This document shows positions 32,776 through 45,290 of a DNA stretch of 64,000 bases, piece by piece (the stretch's first letter is position 1; each line of letters starts with the position of its first letter). The stretch is from contig JAAVTG010000635.1 of NCBI GenBank assembly GCA_011947345.1, positions 105,633 to 169,632 on the forward strand, read 5' to 3'. Below the pieces are notes generated by a model that worked only from the letters and a program-made list of their open reading frames with translations, had not been told where the DNA came from and ran no database searches. The stretch is from Phytophthora quininea. Taxonomy: Eukaryota > Oomycota > Peronosporomycetes > Peronosporales > Peronosporaceae. The translations under genes and the position numbers were made by a program.

Positions 32776-33026
32776 TGTTGAGGTTGAGGCTCGTCATGCC
32801 CAGTTGAAGTTTGTATTGATTAACACCGATCTTATCCTATACAAACTGAAGTGCTTGTCAATCTCCATGTGACTCAATGACTGCAGCATTTAACGGTTGG
32901 CAGTCACTGCAATTGTTGTAACACGTGTCCTGCTCCCAAAGCAGTCCATTTAATGCATAATATCACTTCTTCTTTTACCTTCTTCTACTCAAGCTCTACT
33001 CTTCAAGTCCCCTAAGCAGTGCACCC
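32776..33026 (+). repeat. 5' LTR of copia element
   Basis: 251 bp starting TGTTGAGGTTGAGG and ending AGCAGTGCACCC. The same sequence recurs at 39314-39564 with one mismatch noticed. Confidence 0.9.
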
Positions 33027-33033
33027 CGCAATA

Positions 33034-33050
33034 GGTCATGAGCCCCAGCC
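33034..33050 (+). other. Putative primer-binding site, internal tRNA-Met type
   Basis: The bases GGTCATGAGCCCCAGCC follow the 5' LTR by about 8 nt. Their complement reads as a tRNA anticodon stem-loop with loop CUCAUGA, anticodon CAU. Drosophila copia is primed by an internal half of initiator tRNA-Met in the same way. There is no normal TGG-starting site here. The gag ATG at 33038 would overlap it. Confidence 0.4.
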
Positions 33051-36000
33051 AAGCCTCAAGCGACGACTTCCCCGACTTACCGGGTCGGGAAACTTCGACG
33101 TATGGAAGGCCCGAGTGACCGCTTCGCTCGATGGCAAGCATCTCCTCGGCTTCGTCACGAAAAGGGACTACAACGGGGTGAGCGACGATGAAGAAGACGT
33201 CGACTCTGGGGATGGCAGCGAGATATCCGACGTCGAAGACACCTCCAAGGCTTCCACGTTAGCCACCGATGGCTCGGATGCTGTCGACTATGAGTCCAGC
33301 TCTGATGGCGGCCAGCAGGACAGCGAGCCACCAAGAACAAGGTTTCTCCCAACCCACCCTCCCCAATCCGCTCGTTCGCGCAGCGCAAGTCTCACCGACG
33401 TGTTGAAAAGGACACGCCCGTGCCACCATCATCTCGGCATCTACGTCGAGTGGAAGCGCAAACCAAGGCTTTCTTGATGAAGACGATGGACGACACGCAC
33501 ATTCGTCTGGCCAAGAACCTTACCACGGCTTATGGCATCTTTCAAGCTATTTGCACGAAGTATGAGGGAGCCGAATTCCACGGCGACCCGTATTTCATCC
33601 AGCACTTCCTCATGGAGACCAAGTACGAGGAAGGCAGCGACGTCAACAAGTTCTTCCTCGTTCTGGAAGATGCGATGCGAGCCGCGCCCAAGGCGACCGA
33701 ATCGGTCCTAACTGATGGACAGAAGTCATTGTACCTGTTTCACTCGATGCCAGCGTCCTGGAAAGACGATCTGCGCATTTGGAAAGGTAACCGGAAGTAC
33801 ATCCCGTATGATGAACTCAAGATGAGCATCGAGAACAAGGTTCGCAAGATGGAGGCGCAGACGCGTTATACGCTAGCGAAAGGCACTCCAGAAAGCCACT
33901 CCACCAAGAATGAGCGTGCTCTCATCGCCCCAACGGAGGTCGCGACACGCACCGTCACGTATGACAATGTGTGCAGCTACTGCCAACGGCCCCACCACAC
34001 CATTCGACAGTGTCGCGGTCTTCAAAAGGACTTACGCGACGGTACCGTCAAGGCCGGAGCAGTATTGCCCGCGAACTTTGAGTTCCGCGGTGGTAATTCC
34101 CACCGGTCCCACCCTTATGACCGCGCCAGCAGCAACACTGGTCGTGGTCGTGACTCGTGGCAGAAAGGCGATCGTCGTCATGGGCGCCACAACGGCGGTC
34201 GTGGTGGTAATTACAGCGGCAACAAAAACAAGGGCAAGCACCAATTTTGGCGCGAGGAAGGCGGGTACGATCAACGCCGCCGTGAAGAAGCCAAAATCGC
34301 TGTTGCGACTGTGATCAAGCCTTTGCCGCCTGCTGTCAGCCTTACAGCTCAAGCGTCTTCGACGTTTGACGGCAACTGGACGGTCGACTCGGGCTGTACC
34401 AGCCACGTCACGCAGCATGCTGAGTGGTTCACCTCAAAAACGCCAGCGAGCGGCTCCATCACCGTTGGCGGCAAGTCTGAGATCCCGATCGAGGGAACTG
34501 GTGATGTCATGCTGCACGTCACCGACTCCAAGGAGGTCACCGCCAGCTCAAGTTGTGCGACGTGCTGTATGCCCTCAGCTCCAGTACAACCTCCTCTCAG
34601 TTCCCGCGGCTGTGGAGCACGACTTTCGCTTCACGTTCCAGCGCACTGCGTGCACGGTGCAAACGGACCAGCGTTTCAATCTCAAGGCGAGGAAGTCTGC
34701 CAGCGCTAAGCTGTACCAGTTTACAGCTTCACCGGTTCAGCAGCAGGAAGCCCATGTGGCCACCTCAGGTAAGCCCACTGCAATCGTGCTTCTGCACAAA
34801 CGACTTGGTCATCCTAACATTCGTGTCTTACAGGCGCTGACTAAGGATCAGGCCCTAGAAGGACTCGACGAGAATACCGTAGTTCCTAAAGACAACTTCT
34901 TTTGCTCAGCCTGTACTTATGCGAAGTCACACCGCGCTGCATTTCCCTCTAATAGACAGGTTGAACGTGCTACAATGCCCTTACAAAAGTTCACAGCGAT
35001 ATCTGTGGGCCTCTTCCCGTTTCTAGTGTTAGCGGCTGCCGCTACTTTATTGTCTTTATTGACGACTTCACGCGCTACATGTTCACGTACGCCATCAAGA
35101 CACGGACTGAACTCTACTCCTGCTACGAAAACTTTCGGATGCAAGCATTGAACATCTTTCGCTCCGATGTTTACACTCTTGAGTATCCTGGGTCAACCTC
35201 TGACTTGGATGTCCAGGTGCTTCAAGCTGATAACGCCAAGGAGTACGAGAAGCTCGGCCGTATTATCTTTAAGCGGTACGGAACACACGCGCAGTTTACA
35301 AACGCATATACACCACAACAAAACGGTGTTGCTGAGCGCCGCATGCGCACTATCATGGAACGGGTCCGTGCCTTACTACTCGATGCTAAGCTCCCCAAGA
35401 AACTATGGGCAGAATGTGTCACGCATGTTACGACGCTCCTCAACATGACACCTAGCGACAACACTTACAATCGCACTCCGTTTGAGCTCTGGCACAACCG
35501 TAAACCTAGCATCCAATACCTCACAGTGTTTGGGTGTGCGGCGTACGCTCACATCAACGACATCTATCGAGACAAACTTGATGCACGCGCTAAACTTTGT
35601 ATTTATCTAGGCATTCCCGCACACAAGAAAGGTTACCGCCTTATGGACGTTCATTCCCATGCAATTGTCTACAGTCGCGATGTTGTCTTCCGTGAAAACA
35701 ACTTCCCGGCACTTGCAACCGCCGACGACACTCCAGATCCGTTACCGTTACCGGAACAACTTACTGTACCTGATGAAACAGTCACTTCTCCCAGTGACGA
35801 ACAGGATGAATCTGCGACGAGTCAATTACCGCAGGTCGGACCAAGCAATACGACTGTTCCACCATCCGCGGTGGATTCAGTAACGTCCATTCCGCTCCCA
35901 TCTCTAAGTGAAGCACTTGAGCGTGGTGTTGTTACATATTCTTTCGTAACGGAGACGCCTTCAACGACTTTCGCCAGCCCTACAAAACGCCCTCGCTATG

Positions 36001-37724
36001 AGGAAGCAATCAAACTCACAGAGCTTACATCACAAGAGGATACTCGTGAAGTCGAGGAGTGCCAAACTCTAGTCCTCGGGCTACTGGCTATTTGCTAAGT
36101 GCCCGAACCCAAAACGTATAAAGGAGCTATGAAATCAGCCTATGCCCGACGATGGCGAGTTGCTACCGAGTCGGAGTACGCGTCTCTTATCAAAAATGAG
36201 ACGTGGGTTCTGGTTCCACCGCCCAAAGGCCGCCGTGTACTACAGAACCGATGGGTCTTCGTTGTAAAATACACGGGCACTGGTGACATTGATAGATTTA
36301 AGGCACGTCTGGTTATCAAAGGGTTCCTCCAGCAGTATGGCATCGACTACAATGAGATCTTCTCTCCTGTGATTCGGATGGAGGTACTCCGCCTCCTCCT
36401 TACCATAGCAGCACTGCTTGACTATGAAGTCTACCAAATGGTTGTCAGACAGCTTTCCTAAATGGCTTTCTGGTGGAAGAAATTTACATGAATTAACCGG
36501 AAGGGTTTGCGGCTCCAGGCCAAGAACACCTCGTACGCAAACTGCTGAAAAGCCTTTACGGACTCAAACAAGCACCTCGAATTTGGTATCAGACACTGTC
36601 TACCTTTCTTGAGAGCCTCGGTTTTCACAAACTGATTAAGGATCGCTGTGTCTTTATGGCCAATATCGATGGTGACGTCTGCTACATCGCTGTCTACGTG
36701 GACGATCTGCTTATCATTGCACCCACTGTCAGCCTCATATGTCGTGTTAAATCGGCCCTGAACAAGAGATTCTCCATGACAGATTTAGGGAGGTGAAGTA
36801 CATTCTCGGCTGGTCCATTGAACGGAACCGTAAAGCCCGAACGATATTTATCCACCAGCAAAAATATGCTACAGATGTCCTCGATAAGTTTAAACACTTG
36901 ATCTCGTATCCGACTGCGACGCCATCAGACCGCAGTACTAAGCTGACTAAAGCAATGGAGCCTCAGACTGATGAAGAGAGGGAGGCTATGAAAGACATTC
37001 CATACCGAGAAGTTGTAGGCAGTTTAATGTACCTCATGGTTGGCACTCGCCCCGATCTAGCGTTTTACATGCGCGAGGTAAGCCAATTCTTAGCAAACCC
37101 TGGCAGAGAACACTGGACAGCAGTCGTAAGAGGTCTCAAGTACCTATCCGGCTCAACGGGTCAAGGTTTGCTACTTGGTGGGACGAACGCAATAAATGAA
37201 AGCACTTAGCTGACCATCTGACAGCCTACATCGACTCGGACTATGCCAATTGCCCCGACACTAGAAGGTCGGTCGGTGGATATGTCACTATGATCGGCGA
37301 AAGCCCGATCTCATGGCTTTCGAGAAAGCACCACACAGTTGTGCTCTCGACGACAGAAGCAGAATACATCGCATTGTGTCATTGTATGCAAGAGGCCATC
37401 TTCCTCAAATTGCTATTGAAAGAACTTGGATTTATGACAACAAGAGCCACAGTTATTATGGAGGACAACCAAAGCTGTATAAAAATTTCCAACAATCCCG
37501 AACTACACGGACGTTCAAAACACATTGATATCCGTTACCATTTCGTTCAAGAGAAGGTAGAACGACACGAATTTAGCGTTGTTTACTGCAATACCAAGTC
37601 AATGGTAGCAGATATTTTCACTAAGTCTCTTGACAAACATCAATTTCGAAACTTGAGACGGAAACTAGGAATGCAATCTCTCGATAGACTAGCAGCAGAC
37701 GCAATTACTGCAACAAACAATTAA
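33038..37724 (+). CDS. copia gag-pol polyprotein (several frame breaks)
   Basis: Gag starts at 33038 (MSPSQASS), shifts frame within 25 codons, and continues with TGSGNFDVWKARV, a UBN2-like Gag. The zinc knuckle CSYCQRPHHTIRQC (CX2CX4HX4C) is at about 33970. The protease site is WTVDSGCTSH (about 34380). Integrase: HKRLGHPN...CSACTYAKSH zinc domain (34795-34930), core with TPQQNGVAERRMRT (about 35315) and LWHNRKPS. RT: NRWVFVVKYTGTG (36249), a damaged KTAFLNG region near 36450, and YVDDLLII (about 36694). RNase H: SRKHHTVVLSTTEAEYIA (37321) and ADIFTKSLD. At least six frame changes or stops occur, notably near 34560, 34730, 35075, 36098, 36460 and 37208. Some are single-base; whether any copy is active cannot be told. 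Confidence 0.85.
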
Positions 37725-37919
37725 TGAAGTAATAGACCCACCTTTTCACAAACTAATGAGTCACAGGAATGCATGAGGTTTCTCTTTGAAAAGGTTTACT
37801 CATTGCATCCTATAGGTTTTACCCTCATAGAGGTTTTCCTGGCACACAGCTGCCGAATAAGCAACAAATAGTAAAGTGAAAATGAGTGACAAAGTCAAAG
37901 AAGCAAATATATTACTTGC

Positions 37920-38723
37920 TTAGTTCTTAATGACGACCTTGCGCACGAACATGACCGCGTCAATCCATTCACCATAGCGCCCCACGCTGCACTTGACATC
38001 GCCATCATGGACAGTCAACTTTCGTCCGTCGACCTGGAGCACGAACGTGTACCCAATGCCCATGGTGTTGCTGGCGCCCACCACGTAGACGCCGTTCTCG
38101 AGCCCGAGCTTCTTGAATGCGGCGACGCCACGATACCCAGAGCGCTGGAAGTTGTACTGGAAGTCGGGCACCGACAACGCCGATCCAGCCTTGCGTAATT
38201 GGTTCAGGAACGCACGGACGGCGTTCCACTTTAGCCCAGTAGAGATATCCACGCCGCGGGCTGCAGCTCCTTGCTGGAAGCGCTCCACTTCTTCCGATGG
38301 CACAGCGGACGGAGAACCGAGAAGCTCCACAGTCTTGGTCAGCGCGTCGAAGACGCATGTGCCGCTTGGGTTGGCGCCCAGCACAGTCTCGTGGTTCTTG
38401 CGAGCCCAGACGAGGAAGTCTCCTGGACGCCCTGCATCCACCCACTCGTCAACGATGTCGAGCACGTCGCCAAACCCGTCCTCACGCAGCCTGGTACCCG
38501 GCTCGTCAGTCACGGGACGCACGCCATCGACCTTGGTCCTCCACACTACTGTGTACTTCGCGTTGGGGCCGGATCCCACACGATCGCAGATGTACGCGAC
38601 GGCCCACTTCCTTGCCATCGCCCTTGCCTGGCGCTGCTCAATGTAGCCCACACGCACGGCCAGCTGCTTCTTGGGGGCCTTGCCACCATTAGACTTCTTC
38701 GCTGTCTGCTTCGAACGAACCAT
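37920..38723 (-). CDS. Histone H3-tail mimic fused to chromodomain-like and peptidase-like segments, inside the retrotransposon
   Basis: An uninterrupted antisense gene of 267 codons. After Met the first 21 residues, VRSKQTAKKSNGGKAPKKQLA by position, match histone H3 1-21 at 16 sites; K4, T6, K9, S10, K14 and K18 are all kept. Residues about 38-95 look like a chromodomain: VAYICDR, YTVVW (the aromatic beta strand), TDEPGTRL and ending DIVDEW. Residues about 110-267 have GTCVFDALTK (compare the DGxCxF of OTU/papain-like Cys peptidases) and, near the end, MGIGYTFVLQVDG then TVHDGD; the expected catalytic His before the strand would be Tyr, so activity is doubtful. It lies between RNase H and the 3' LTR. 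Chromatin targeting by mimicry is inferred, not shown. No frame break, unlike gag-pol. Confidence 0.8.
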   Translation of the reverse strand: MVRSKQTAKKSNGGKAPKKQLAVRVGYIEQRQARAMARKWAVAYICDRVGSGPNAKYTVVWRTKVDGVRPVTDEPGTRLREDGFGDVLDIVDEWVDAGRPGDFLVWARKNHETVLGANPSGTCVFDALTKTVELLGSPSAVPSEEVERFQQGAAARGVDISTGLKWNAVRAFLNQLRKAGSALSVPDFQYNFQRSGYRGVAAFKKLGLENGVYVVGASNTMGIGYTFVLQVDGRKLTVHDGDVKCSVGRYGEWIDAVMFVRKVVIKN

Positions 38724-39299
38724 TTGCAGGGAGCTAACACAACTCTTAGTCTAAGGTAAGGTACACAAACGCAAGACAAGCAAAGAAAGCAAACACAGTG
38801 TATTACTGAATTCACTCTACTCTGTTGCTGGCAAAAGACCGAGTGAGCAGTGCCTCGCAAGCGCCCAGTTCGGATACCTCCACGAGGGAACTGCAGCTCT
38901 TGCGTCCGACGGCGGGTATCCGAGTCCGAATCTCGGCTGGATACGGACTGGGTATCGACAATCCATTTTGCACATCAAAATGATCCGTGGGAAGTGACGA
39001 GACATGCACTGCGATCATTTATACGTACTCTGAAAATCAGTAAGTTTTTGCTAAGGGGCCTCATTTGGCAATTTGCCATGGAGCCCGCAGTTGGCCAACT
39101 GGCAAAAGTCCAGGACCAACTGGGCCGATCCCCTTCCACGAGGAGAGCCCGAATCCGGCCTCGTATCGGTCGTAGCTCTCCCAGGAGAGCCAAAAACGCC
39201 GAAAGTCCGTTTTGGCGGCCAGGTTTCGAAACTTGACTGGGGATAATTTTAGGATGGGTAGCTCCGTTTTTGGCGAATCAGCGCCTTCATCCCTGATGC
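38724..39299. other. Region between antisense gene and 3' LTR
   Basis: About 575 bp inside the element upstream of the H3-mimic gene. It has no coding segment I can support; it should hold that gene's promoter. Near-symmetric GC-rich pieces such as GGCCTCGTATCGG occur at 39155-39240. Confidence 0.4.
38833..38848 (-). promoter_or_regulatory. Possible oomycete initiator of the antisense H3-mimic gene
   Basis: On the minus strand GCTCACTCGGTCTTTT fits GCTCATTYYNCAWTTT at about 12 of 16 positions, with the GCTCA core and TTTT end kept. It lies 110 nt before the ATG at 38723. Confidence 0.3.
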
Positions 39300-39313
39300 C
39301 GAGCCAGGGAGGC
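39300..39313 (+). other. Putative polypurine tract
   Basis: Purine-rich AGCCAGGGAGG directly before the 3' LTR, where plus-strand DNA synthesis of the element would be primed. Two or three pyrimidines interrupt it. Confidence 0.35.
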
Positions 39314-39564
39314 TGTTGAGGTTGAGGCTCGTCATGCCCAGTTGAAGTTTGTATTGATTAACACCGATCTTATCCTATACAAACCGAAGTGCTTGTCAAT
39401 CTCCATGTGACTCAATGACTGCAGCATTTAACGGTTGGCAGTCACTGCAATTGTTGTAACACGTGTCCTGCTCCCAAAGCAGTCCATTTAATGCATAATA
39501 TCACTTCTTCTTTTACCTTCTTCTACTCAAGCTCTACTCTTCAAGTCCCCTAAGCAGTGCACCC
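39314..39564 (+). repeat. 3' LTR of copia element
   Basis: Second copy of the 251-bp LTR, same start and end as the 5' copy, one mismatch noticed. It ends about 15 bp from a CRN gene fragment. Confidence 0.9.
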
Positions 39565-39578
39565 TCCATACTCCGCTA

Positions 39579-39850
39579 TCAAATAGACAATTCAAGTGTA
39601 TCCTCCTCATCAGCGCCAAAGTAGCATTTAGCGGCCGAAAAATCCTCCCGTTCAACAAAGTCACCACCCTCTCATTTCGTTCAACTCGCGTGGGATTTCC
39701 CACTCGGAAATCAACGACGACATAGTCGTCTAAAGCGAACGGGGCATACTTCTCAGCAAATTAACTCAACCGTTCGCCAACGTTAATGCCTTTTATGAGC
39801 AACGCGATACCCCAAGGACGATTTCCATTCAGATAAAGTTCGATTTGGCC
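39579..39850 (-). pseudogene. CRN (Crinkler) effector C-terminal fragment
   Basis: Read on the minus strand it encodes the typical end of CRN effector proteins: IELYLNGNRPWGIALLIKG, an internal TAA, then FALDDYVVVDFRVG, DFSAAKCYFGADEE and a stop at 39579. This is the predicted PD-(D/E)xK-like C-terminal segment of NTPase-nuclease type CRNs. It has no N-terminus and is a remnant. It shares its tail with the pseudogene ending at 44721, in opposite orientation. Confidence 0.6.
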
Positions 39851-39941
39851 ATCGGTGGCCTGGCCGGGCTGGGTCAACGTTGACAGGAACACTCTTGTAA
39901 GGTCCGAGCATATGTAGCAGGGTTCGTCAGTGTATTGCGCT

Positions 39942-40001
39942 AAATCGGCTAAATGCTACTTTGGCACTGCTGCGGAGGAAACCAATGAGTTGGCAAATTG
40001 A
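39942..40001 (+). pseudogene. Short CRN tail fragment
   Basis: Encodes SAKCYFGTAAEETNELAN and a stop, nearly the same as the end of the CRN at 44721. Only about 60 bp is recognisable. It is in the opposite orientation to the fragment at 39579-39850. Confidence 0.5.
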
Positions 40002-40741
40002 AAGCGGAACCTTCCCGACACGATTCTTCGTGGATGATTGACTTTGCAACATGTTGTCGCTTCCGATGCAAAAGTAGAAGTGATATATATTGAGTAGTTT
40101 GTTAGCTTTCACTAGCTGCTCTCCTATGGATGCTCTTGGAGATTCATCCGTTGGACCCGTCCGTACTTGCTGCACTTGCATAACAGTCCGTAGTTGAGCA
40201 ACCGTCCTTACTTTCTGCAGCTGTACAGCTTCCGTAGAGTGTTGGTGTTGGTGGGCTAGATCTCAGCAACGACTACACGGCATAGCAACACAACATTATC
40301 GAAAAGTTCGTTTTGTAGGGCATATTGCAGTGTCGATGCTTTACTAAGGATAGCTAACCAATATCTTCGTCACTCTTAAGTTCGTTGAAGTCAATCCCTG
40401 CTTTGTATTTTTTCAATTGATGCCGATCAAGGCATTGGATCTAATTCTTGCATTTTGGGATGGTATTTGACAATGCATATCTGGCCGCACCTTTCGATCT
40501 TGATGGTGTCAAGAAACACGTGATGACGTGAATGGAAACGACTTCATACTACCAGTAGTCATTCCATTCCGTTCATTGGTTAGGTAAATTCTAGTACGAG
40601 CCCAGCTCCTGCAGTAGCGACGACAGGAGTGGCATAAAAATCTGGTTGTCTTGGAGACTACGAAATGCCTGAGAAATATGGTGATTGATTAGGTCGACAT
40701 TCGGGACAAGACTCATTTCAGAATTTGCAAAGGTGGTTAAG
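40002..40741. other. Intergenic, no gene recognised
   Basis: About 740 bp, rather AT-rich, upstream of the CRN pseudogene. No coding segment could be supported. It may contain the CRN promoter. Confidence 0.4.
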
Positions 40742-43460: not shown

Positions 43461-44721
43461 TTCAATTTGAAGCCGACAGAGCTGCTCGGTGAGGTAGGGA
43501 TCGATATCGTCAACAGAGTGTGTCGAATTCCAGAAGATGACACGCTACACATCGTTACGTTGGACGATTGCGAGACACAGTATCGCAACATACCGTTCTA
43601 GATTAGCCTCATTAAAGACTTCACCAGACCAGAGTCCATGGCCTCCGCGACATATTCGGTTTATCCTGTCGGCTAGGCACTCGCTGGAGACGGAGATCCC
43701 TACAAGTCCTGTTGTATTCGAGACTCAAATTCCGGCCAGCCTCGGACTATTGGATGTCTTGGTCAGCGACGAGGAAGCCCGTCACTAAATTATTGTGGAA
43801 AACGGCCTGCCACCATGTATGCACTTCCCAGATTTGATGACGACGATTATACGTGAGTGCAATGGGATTATTGGTGCGTTGCGCGCCTTCGTCGATGAGA
43901 TTTACGCTCTTTTCCGCCTGGAGAATCCGCGGCAGCACACTTTGTTGGAATATTATCTCTCTGACTTTGGGAATTATATGGGAGACTTCTTTGGAGCTGA
44001 GTAAGAAGCACCCAGTAAGGAGGTTCAGGCAGTTCTGATCAAGATATTCTTCCCTAATTCACGGCAGACAACGTTGGGGTTATTGAGTGATGCTGATAAG
44101 AAACTTCTTCAAAGCGTGGCGAATTTAGGTATCGTGGTAGTAAATGCTGAAGGTGTGTACGTGTTTAATTCTGCCATGACTGCGAGATTCTACGGCAAGT
44201 GGCTGCTTCCGAATCGTGGAGAGAGAGACCCAGAGATGCTGCGCGAACTGATCACGGACATGATCGAATGCTTTTCGGCGGAAATACTTCGAGGTTCTGT
44301 TCCTAGTGGAGACGAGTTCCCTGACGAGGGAACTTTGCAATATCTTTTATGACTGCTTTGGCACAAAATACCCGTCAATCATGCTGCATATACCCAGAGC
44401 TTCCACGAGCGTTCCCGTCCATGCCAGCTCGCTCCGATGGCAAAATGGATTTCTATCTGAATGGAAGTCGTCGGTGGGGAATTGAGTTGCTCGTGAACGG
44501 TCGTAACATTGATGAACATTTGGCTCATTTAGGGATAAATGTGCCTCGTTCGCGTTAAATGACTCGTCGTCGTTGATCTTCGAGACAACTTGGATGGAAG
44601 TGCCACGAGAGTTGAGTTACACGAAAAGATAGTAACTGTGCACTTCGAATGCGAGGGTTTTTCGGCCGCTAAATGCTACTTTGGTGCTGATGAGGAGGAA
44701 ACCATTGAGTTGGCAAATTGA

Positions 44722-45290
44722 ATGCAGAACGATAGAAGCGGGAGCTGAGATGAAGTCCCTCGTGGAAAGTTGGCGACGCAACGTTATCCAAGCGCTGTTG
44801 TAGGCAGTATCGACGTTCTACTAAGGTTAAAATGTTGATCTTAATGCTGTTAAGACGTGATGACGAGAACAACAACAACATACTATCTCGCTGTAGCACT
44901 CCATTAGCCTGCAGACTTCATGCGACTTTACTTACTACGAGCATGAATAAACAAACAAAATTTTACCGGTAATGAAATTCCTCTCGATTAGGACTAAGCT
45001 GCTTATGATGGTGAATAAAAGCTGATAGATCTTGATGACCCAAAGAACGTTCTTGTTTTGCGTTGCCCGCGGGCGGAGTTCACTTGGTCGCTGCGAATTA
45101 GATCAACGAATGAGGGAACTTCGGTTTGCGGATTCTGCCAGCAGGAAGTTACCTCAACGATAAGGTGGTTTGAACCACGGTTTATCGATTATGCTGGATT
45201 GCTTTTATCTTTGATGTCGTGAACATGCAGTCTGTCCTAACACTGTGTGGCTTCCTCGCCAGGGGAAAATGCATAACCACAGAATAGAGG
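44722..45290. other. Intergenic, no gene recognised
   Basis: About 570 bp, AT-rich, downstream of the CRN pseudogene. No coding segment could be supported. Confidence 0.4.

Follow-up and report, generated by a model that had tools for sequence, protein, structure and literature searches.

In the oomycete Phytophthora quininea, a copia retrotransposon carries on its antisense strand a gene with an intact frame whose predicted product begins like histone H3. The element lies in the window, by which we mean the whole 64,000-nucleotide stretch of DNA analyzed here (assembly GCA_011947345.1, contig JAAVTG010000635.1, positions 105,633 to 169,632 of the forward strand); it is part of contig C629, and searches of the species' own genome covered 87 Mb. 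The open reading frame (ORF) joins an H3-like N-terminal tail to a chromodomain-like region and a papain-like peptidase fold, the latter two predicted from structural models. We tentatively read it as an antisense accessory gene of an oomycete long terminal repeat (LTR) element that may serve as a counter-silencing factor on host chromatin, and give this reading somewhat less than an even chance. The parts of the gene, in window coordinates, are the following.

37920-38723, - strand: antisense ORF, 267 codons plus stop, identified by its open frame, homologues, codon-position bias, and ratio of nonsynonymous to synonymous divergence (dN/dS)
38658-38723, - strand: H3-like tail, residues 1-22, 16/21 identical to host H3
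38433-38606, - strand: chromodomain-like region, residues 40-97, from a model, Foldseek, and sub-threshold Pfam matches in relatives
37923-38372, - strand: papain-like (C39-type) peptidase fold, residues 118-267, with C123, Y225 (His in relatives), and D240
38724-39040, - strand: sequence 5′ of the antisense gene, retained in the other tail-bearing copies

The first-pass annotation, made from the letters alone, had reported a match of 16 of the first 21 residues to H3 1-21, with K4, K9, S10, K14, and K18 retained, in an intact 267-codon gene between RNase H and the 3′ LTR. Both points were confirmed: the - strand frame is open throughout, and against the host's own H3 the tail is identical at 16/21 positions, keeps the five named residues, and differs by A1V, T3S, R8K, T11N, and R17K. 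The best PDB matches of the first 22 residues alone were histone H3 (E, 5.6e-7). Composition-preserving shuffles were made for each of eight tails (the window, L018, L021, L022, P0002, P0003, L019, and L020), and 0/4000 reached the H3 alignment score in every case. A whole-genome search with H3 residues 1-45 (E up to 10) returned 16 rows, comprising seven H3 loci (ten rows), the four tail-bearing copies, and two further rows, an unrelated ORF and a weak match. By these three measures (PDB match, shuffles, and genome search), the histone-tail likeness of the ORF start is beyond chance. The match to H3 stops at about residue 22 to 26. The ORF was rejected as a true histone H3, as there is no histone fold behind the tail and the remainder models as other folds.

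Elsewhere in the genome, a second, unrelated ORF (L054:930-1319; G000:C555:202529 on) begins with MARTKQTARKSTAGTAPRRLLSTKAA; its H3 tail includes the true R8 and R17, and the match runs to about residue 25. The ORF lies just upstream of a 2-oxoglutarate (2OG) oxygenase-like frame, and beside it, in divergent orientation, is a relative of that oxygenase with no such tail at its start.

A search for other copies with the tail, which the first-pass annotation had proposed, found three more in the genome and a P. cinnamomi protein, together with three weaker relatives. Identity to H3 is 17/21 in C570 (L018), 18/21 in C693 (L021), 17/21 in C290 (L022), and 14/21 in the P. cinnamomi protein P0002. 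The weaker tails of L019, L020, and P0003 match at 7 to 8/21 positions ungapped, and their gapped scores lie above those of all 4000 shuffles. The C693 and C290 copies have a frame change at a shared position within the gene's second half, and a single decayed copy appears twice, in C983 and in C984, its start still reading MARAKQIEKK. Across the eight tails, K4 is kept in 8/8, R2 in 7/8, and Q5 in 7/8, and K14 is present in 7/8 when L019 and L020 are given one gap and P0003 a longer one. In a tree of the protein body, from which the tail columns were omitted, the five clear tails form one group (support, 99/99), here called the tail clade, with P0003 as its sister (99/92) and L019/L020 next with weak support (73/45). 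The trees took 35 and 28 rows, L021 and L022 entering with their first 125 codons only.

Behind the tail, the predicted model of residues 40-97 consists of three strands and a helix, and its Foldseek matches are the chromodomains of MPP8, HP1, and Rhino, all of them weak (E above 0.3). A second model was made because the VIA-align rows of the window model barely cover the chromodomain part. The Pfam scan of the window protein found no family at E 1 and no match to Chromo (PF00385), for which 7 of the 14 scanned relatives scored 12 to 19 bits, below the cut-off of 25.1, and the other 7 had no match. In a sequence alignment, two Trp residues of the putative aromatic methyl-lysine cage are kept, and the TWEP Trp and the third position are altered in the tail clade and P0003. 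Judged from the models, the region behind the tail looks like a degenerate chromodomain. The predicted model of residues 118-267 has a papain-like, C39-type fold; in this fold and in its Cys-His-Asp arrangement it resembles the C39-type peptidases ComA and PCAT1 as well as AvrPphB, whose triads we take to have the same arrangement, but its sequence is about 6 to 14% identical to these proteins. Among the family rows with a letter at the position, the triad is kept in 20/20 (C), 21/22 (H), and 21/22 (D). The window ORF model had no match in a viral fold library at E 0.001. Both folds rest on models of middling confidence. Since they resemble a chromodomain joined to a papain-fold peptidase, the models of the remaining protein suggest that a chromatin role is likelier than it would be from the tail alone.

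One relative, L030, is a gypsy element that has both an antisense gene of the ORF family and an ordinary chromodomain behind its integrase on the sense strand (L030:2812-2949; residues 378-423 of the pol frame 1681-2988; Pfam E, 5.2e-6). Chromodomain-like sequences are thus found on opposite strands of one element. In the copia-borne relatives L024 to L026, the N-terminal part is acidic and Asp/Glu/Ser-rich, not basic, and L024 and L026 are open for 338 codons from MSPADV.

The gene belongs to a family with at least 46 matches in the P. quininea genome. At 20 places, which were the best matches and a choice of weaker ones, the flanks were examined, and the gene was antisense to and downstream of pol in 20/20, the neighboring pol being of copia type at 13 and of gypsy type at 7. 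Near-identity among some of these copies puts the number of independent cases below 20. LTR pairs around the gene were found in the window, L018, L019, and L020 only. The window ORF has the marks of an antisense accessory ORF, with its own frame opposite gag-pol, a position between pol and the 3′ LTR, and conservation among copies. Relatives were named from P. cinnamomi, P. nicotianae, P. infestans, P. cactorum, P. citrophthora, P. palmivora, P. lilii, P. megakarya, P. idaei, and P. fragariaefolia, and one Joint Genome Institute (JGI) label was read as P. capsici; all protein-database relatives are from Phytophthora where the organism is named. One protein search scored only the 7998 candidates sharing the most words, and the own-genome counts are lower bounds. 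The antisense gene family is Phytophthora-wide and is carried by both copia and gypsy elements.

The body of the antisense gene is under long-run purifying selection. Between the window and L019, the differences at codon positions 1, 2, and 3 number 101, 77, and 143 (chi-square against equal shares, p 3e-5), with a dN of 0.44 and a dS of 1.32 over 266 codons. The close pairs are less informative on selection: the window and L018 differ by 4, 1, and 8 (p 0.058; dN 0.013, dS 0.026) and L019 and L020 by 7, 7, and 11 (p 0.53; dN 0.025, dS 0.055). L021 and L022, both of which are frame-broken, differ by 5, 6, and 7 without bias, as expected after loss of function. The dN/dS check called for in the first-pass annotation succeeded for the body of the gene; for the tail alone, the ratio between two copy groups is 0.9 to 1.6, over too few sites to extend the result. 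A one-off capture of an H3 gene without selection, which the annotation had named as one of the outcomes that would undo its proposal, is at odds with the several copies, the second species, and the purifying selection on the body.

If the protein acts on chromatin, several steps can be envisaged. The gene would be transcribed on the - strand from its own flank, and a query covering the flank and the ORF start (38500-39040) is 95, 88, and 86% identical to three tail-bearing copies. An oomycete initiator-like consensus matched the window 13 times against 9.3 expected, which is chance level, and had no match on the - strand upstream of the ORF; no promoter is therefore claimed. The chromodomain, if the likely fold is correct, would bring the protein to methylated heterochromatin; the N-terminal tail would engage either the writers or readers of H3 tails or other domains of the protein itself; and the peptidase of triad-intact copies would cut a chromatin protein. 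The H3 resemblance suggests that the element may interfere with the silencing chromatin of its host. The mechanism is plausible because, as the available parts of the sources report, H3 is clipped in mammals by cathepsin L (PMC12269491), viruses mimic H3 (PMC10208167), the centromeres of P. sojae contain heterochromatic copia elements (PMC7082073), and gene silencing in P. infestans proceeds via histone changes without cytosine methylation (PMC3522703). We consider improbable the fuller version, in which a stepwise-evolved mimic dismantles silencing, its reader finding methylated heterochromatin, its peptidase clipping H3 tails or a heterochromatin protein, and its own tail serving as pseudosubstrate or decoy.

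Several observations weigh against a role in counter-silencing. In the window copy, residue 225 is Tyr, where His is present in the other 21/22 rows with a letter, and the cleavage step probably does not apply to this copy as it stands. Because of the altered residues, the chromodomain step is doubtful within the tail clade itself. The tail and the remainder of the protein evolve at similar rates, identity between the window and P. cinnamomi being 15/22 in the tail, 40/57 in the chromodomain region, and 120/169 in the peptidase region. K9 is kept in 4/8 tails, as is K18; since K4 is kept in all eight, the H3K4 end is the stable part of the tail and the H3K9 site is not. The constraint on the modifiable lysines that the first-pass annotation had proposed to test is accordingly not supported. 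Two further points belong here as signs that an H3 gene was captured. First, in comparison with four host H3 genes, 9 to 12 codons are identical against 8.3 to 9.3 expected, and the count exceeds expectation in 15/16 comparisons; P ranges from 0.017 to 0.67 and is below 0.05 in 6/16 dependent comparisons, all of them with the host loci L011 and L013. This leans slightly toward capture but is too weak and too dependent to decide. Second, the outgroup P0013 is slightly more H3-like than shuffles (P, 0.007 to 0.008).

The strongest alternative concerns the origin of the tail. It could be the 5′ end of a host H3 gene, captured before the tail clade, P0003, and L019/L020 diverged (or perhaps before the whole group did), and decaying since then with no mimicry function. 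For each of the 21 positions, one or more of the related tails has the H3 residue, including R8 (P0003 and L019) and R17 (L019), and where positions vary within the clade, the H3 residue is present in some copies only, as decay would give; the unrelated L054 ORF, with its true R8 and R17, looks like such a capture elsewhere in the genome. The outgroups tell against it. Among the 11 with readable starts that were compared, MxRxAQ is the start of 6, and Ala occupies position 4 in 9. Starts of the MxRxAQ type include MPRYAQVARM, MPRSAQVTRM, MLRAAQVMPM, and MLRSAQVVPV, with MVRSAQSFGR and MVRVAQSSGR in the gypsy-borne group; those off the whole pattern are MPPLTQIDRM, MVRSARLLGR, two of the form MxRVAPSLGR, and copia-borne L024. 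The start of L019, MARSKQVDRMSSGK, has K4, S10, and G12 as in H3 and shares the non-H3 residues S3, V6, and M9 with the outgroups. The match also ends at about residue 22, and no H3 likeness was noticed upstream of the ATG or beyond. We regard capture followed by decay without function as rather doubtful, though it carries appreciable weight.

Stepwise change fits these data because H3 likeness rises from the outgroups (0 to 4 matches among residues 1-11) through the intermediates (5 to 6) to the tail clade (7 to 10). The comparison drew on 19 starts chosen for readability, a choice that favors rows with the motif, and for three of them the start taken is an internal Met within a longer model. 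Omitted from it were P0005-P0009, P0012, P0014-P0018, P0020-P0024, P0027, L046, and most own-genome relatives; P0005, P0007, P0008, and L032, as annotated or read, have starts other than MxRxAQ. On the sequences compared, we slightly favor stepwise modification of an older MxRxAQ start as the source of the tail, with capture of H3, whatever followed it, falling somewhat short of an even chance.

A second alternative retains the chromatin enzyme and reassigns the tail, which would be an internal ligand, acting on the peptidase or chromodomain of the same protein as a pseudosubstrate or an autoinhibitory leader, and would resemble H3 since the enzyme's target is the H3 tail. The three parts do lie in one chain, and the cysteine protease cathepsin L offers a precedent for H3-tail clipping (PMC12269491, as far as the available part of that source goes), but the H3 form is missing from outgroups whose triad is intact, and we think this explanation unlikely. 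That the tail is a generic basic, disordered start for nuclear entry or nucleic-acid binding, H3-like by composition alone, is nearly refuted, since the match is specific to residue order in all eight tails and reaches 18/21 in L021, although several relatives do have basic stretches in their low-confidence N-terminal parts.

Read as a counter-silencing gene, the ORF can be set beside several known systems, each compared here by the available part of its description. Viral H3-tail mimics (influenza NS1 ARSK, SARS-CoV-2 ORF8 ARKS, and adenovirus protein VII) are likewise parasite proteins that copy H3-tail residues used by host writers and readers, but they are motifs of 4 to 5 residues (PMC10208167), whereas here 14 to 18/21 N-terminal residues match, in a retroelement protein in which the tail is fused to chromodomain-like and peptidase-like folds. 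The antisense ORFs of plant Retand elements, with a TRP28 domain, also lie between pol and the 3′ LTR and are thought to be regulatory; they are a different protein family, in plant gypsy elements, and their description, to the extent available, gives no H3 tail, chromodomain, or peptidase (PMC11963269). Chronos elements and chromoviruses are chromodomain-bearing LTR elements, oomycetes included, but in them the chromodomain goes with the integrase and not with a separate antisense protein (PMC5348765). The CoLT element of P. sojae centromeres is an oomycete copia element in heterochromatin; it is set apart by its description, in which the domain list has gag and pol only and the available main text does not contain the word antisense (PMC7082073). 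VANC of Arabidopsis VANDAL transposons is a transposon-encoded accessory anti-silencing protein, the role proposed here, but VANC proteins are sequence specific, with no histone mimicry in the available descriptions (PMC10398659, PMC5735166).

Oomycete LTR chromodomains beside integrase, antisense genes in plant Retand elements, and viral mimics of H3 motifs are already known. A long H3-like tail with chromodomain-like and peptidase-like folds in an antisense retroelement gene was not found in the literature searched by title and abstract start (subscription papers and preprints lying outside it), nor was the antisense gene family or any retroelement H3-tail mimic, in agreement with the first-pass annotation, which knew of no described family of this make-up. 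If the counter-silencing reading is true, long N-terminal H3 mimicry beside a reader and a peptidase would provide a direct test of mobile elements against oomycete heterochromatin and an unusual case in which the steps toward histone-tail resemblance can be ordered on a tree. Even without mimicry, an antisense chromodomain-peptidase gene of Phytophthora copia and gypsy elements is absent from the searched literature.

The element that carries the gene spans 32776-39564, with the following features outside the antisense gene.

32776-33026, + strand: 5′ LTR of the copia element, a 251-nt direct repeat with 39314-39564, 1 mismatch
34366-37724, + strand: remains of the sense copia polyprotein (integrase, reverse transcriptase, and RNase H), in several ORFs
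39314-39564, + strand: 3′ LTR of the copia element, pairing with 32776-33026

The LTR pair differs at 1/251 bases, and the element is young. RNase H ends at 37724, and the antisense ORF sits between it and the 3′ LTR. In the ORF list, the sense reading of the window polyprotein is split among several ORFs; the homologous frames of the C570 copy match the Pfam families for copia gag, integrase, and RVT_2. The contrast drawn in the first-pass annotation between a broken polyprotein and an unbroken antisense ORF is seen in the window, but the presumed active site of the ORF is itself damaged (Tyr225), and some polyprotein breaks could be assembly errors, because 4/7 host H3 loci (L012, L013, L014, and L015; C197, C918, C919, and C557) also change frame in the assembly, three of them after ∼34 residues and the fourth farther along. 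Short inverted and direct repeats (61 to 82 nt, 80 to 89% identity) lie just beyond the 3′ LTR, at 39572-40010 and 44647-44730, and are perhaps a small transposon family.
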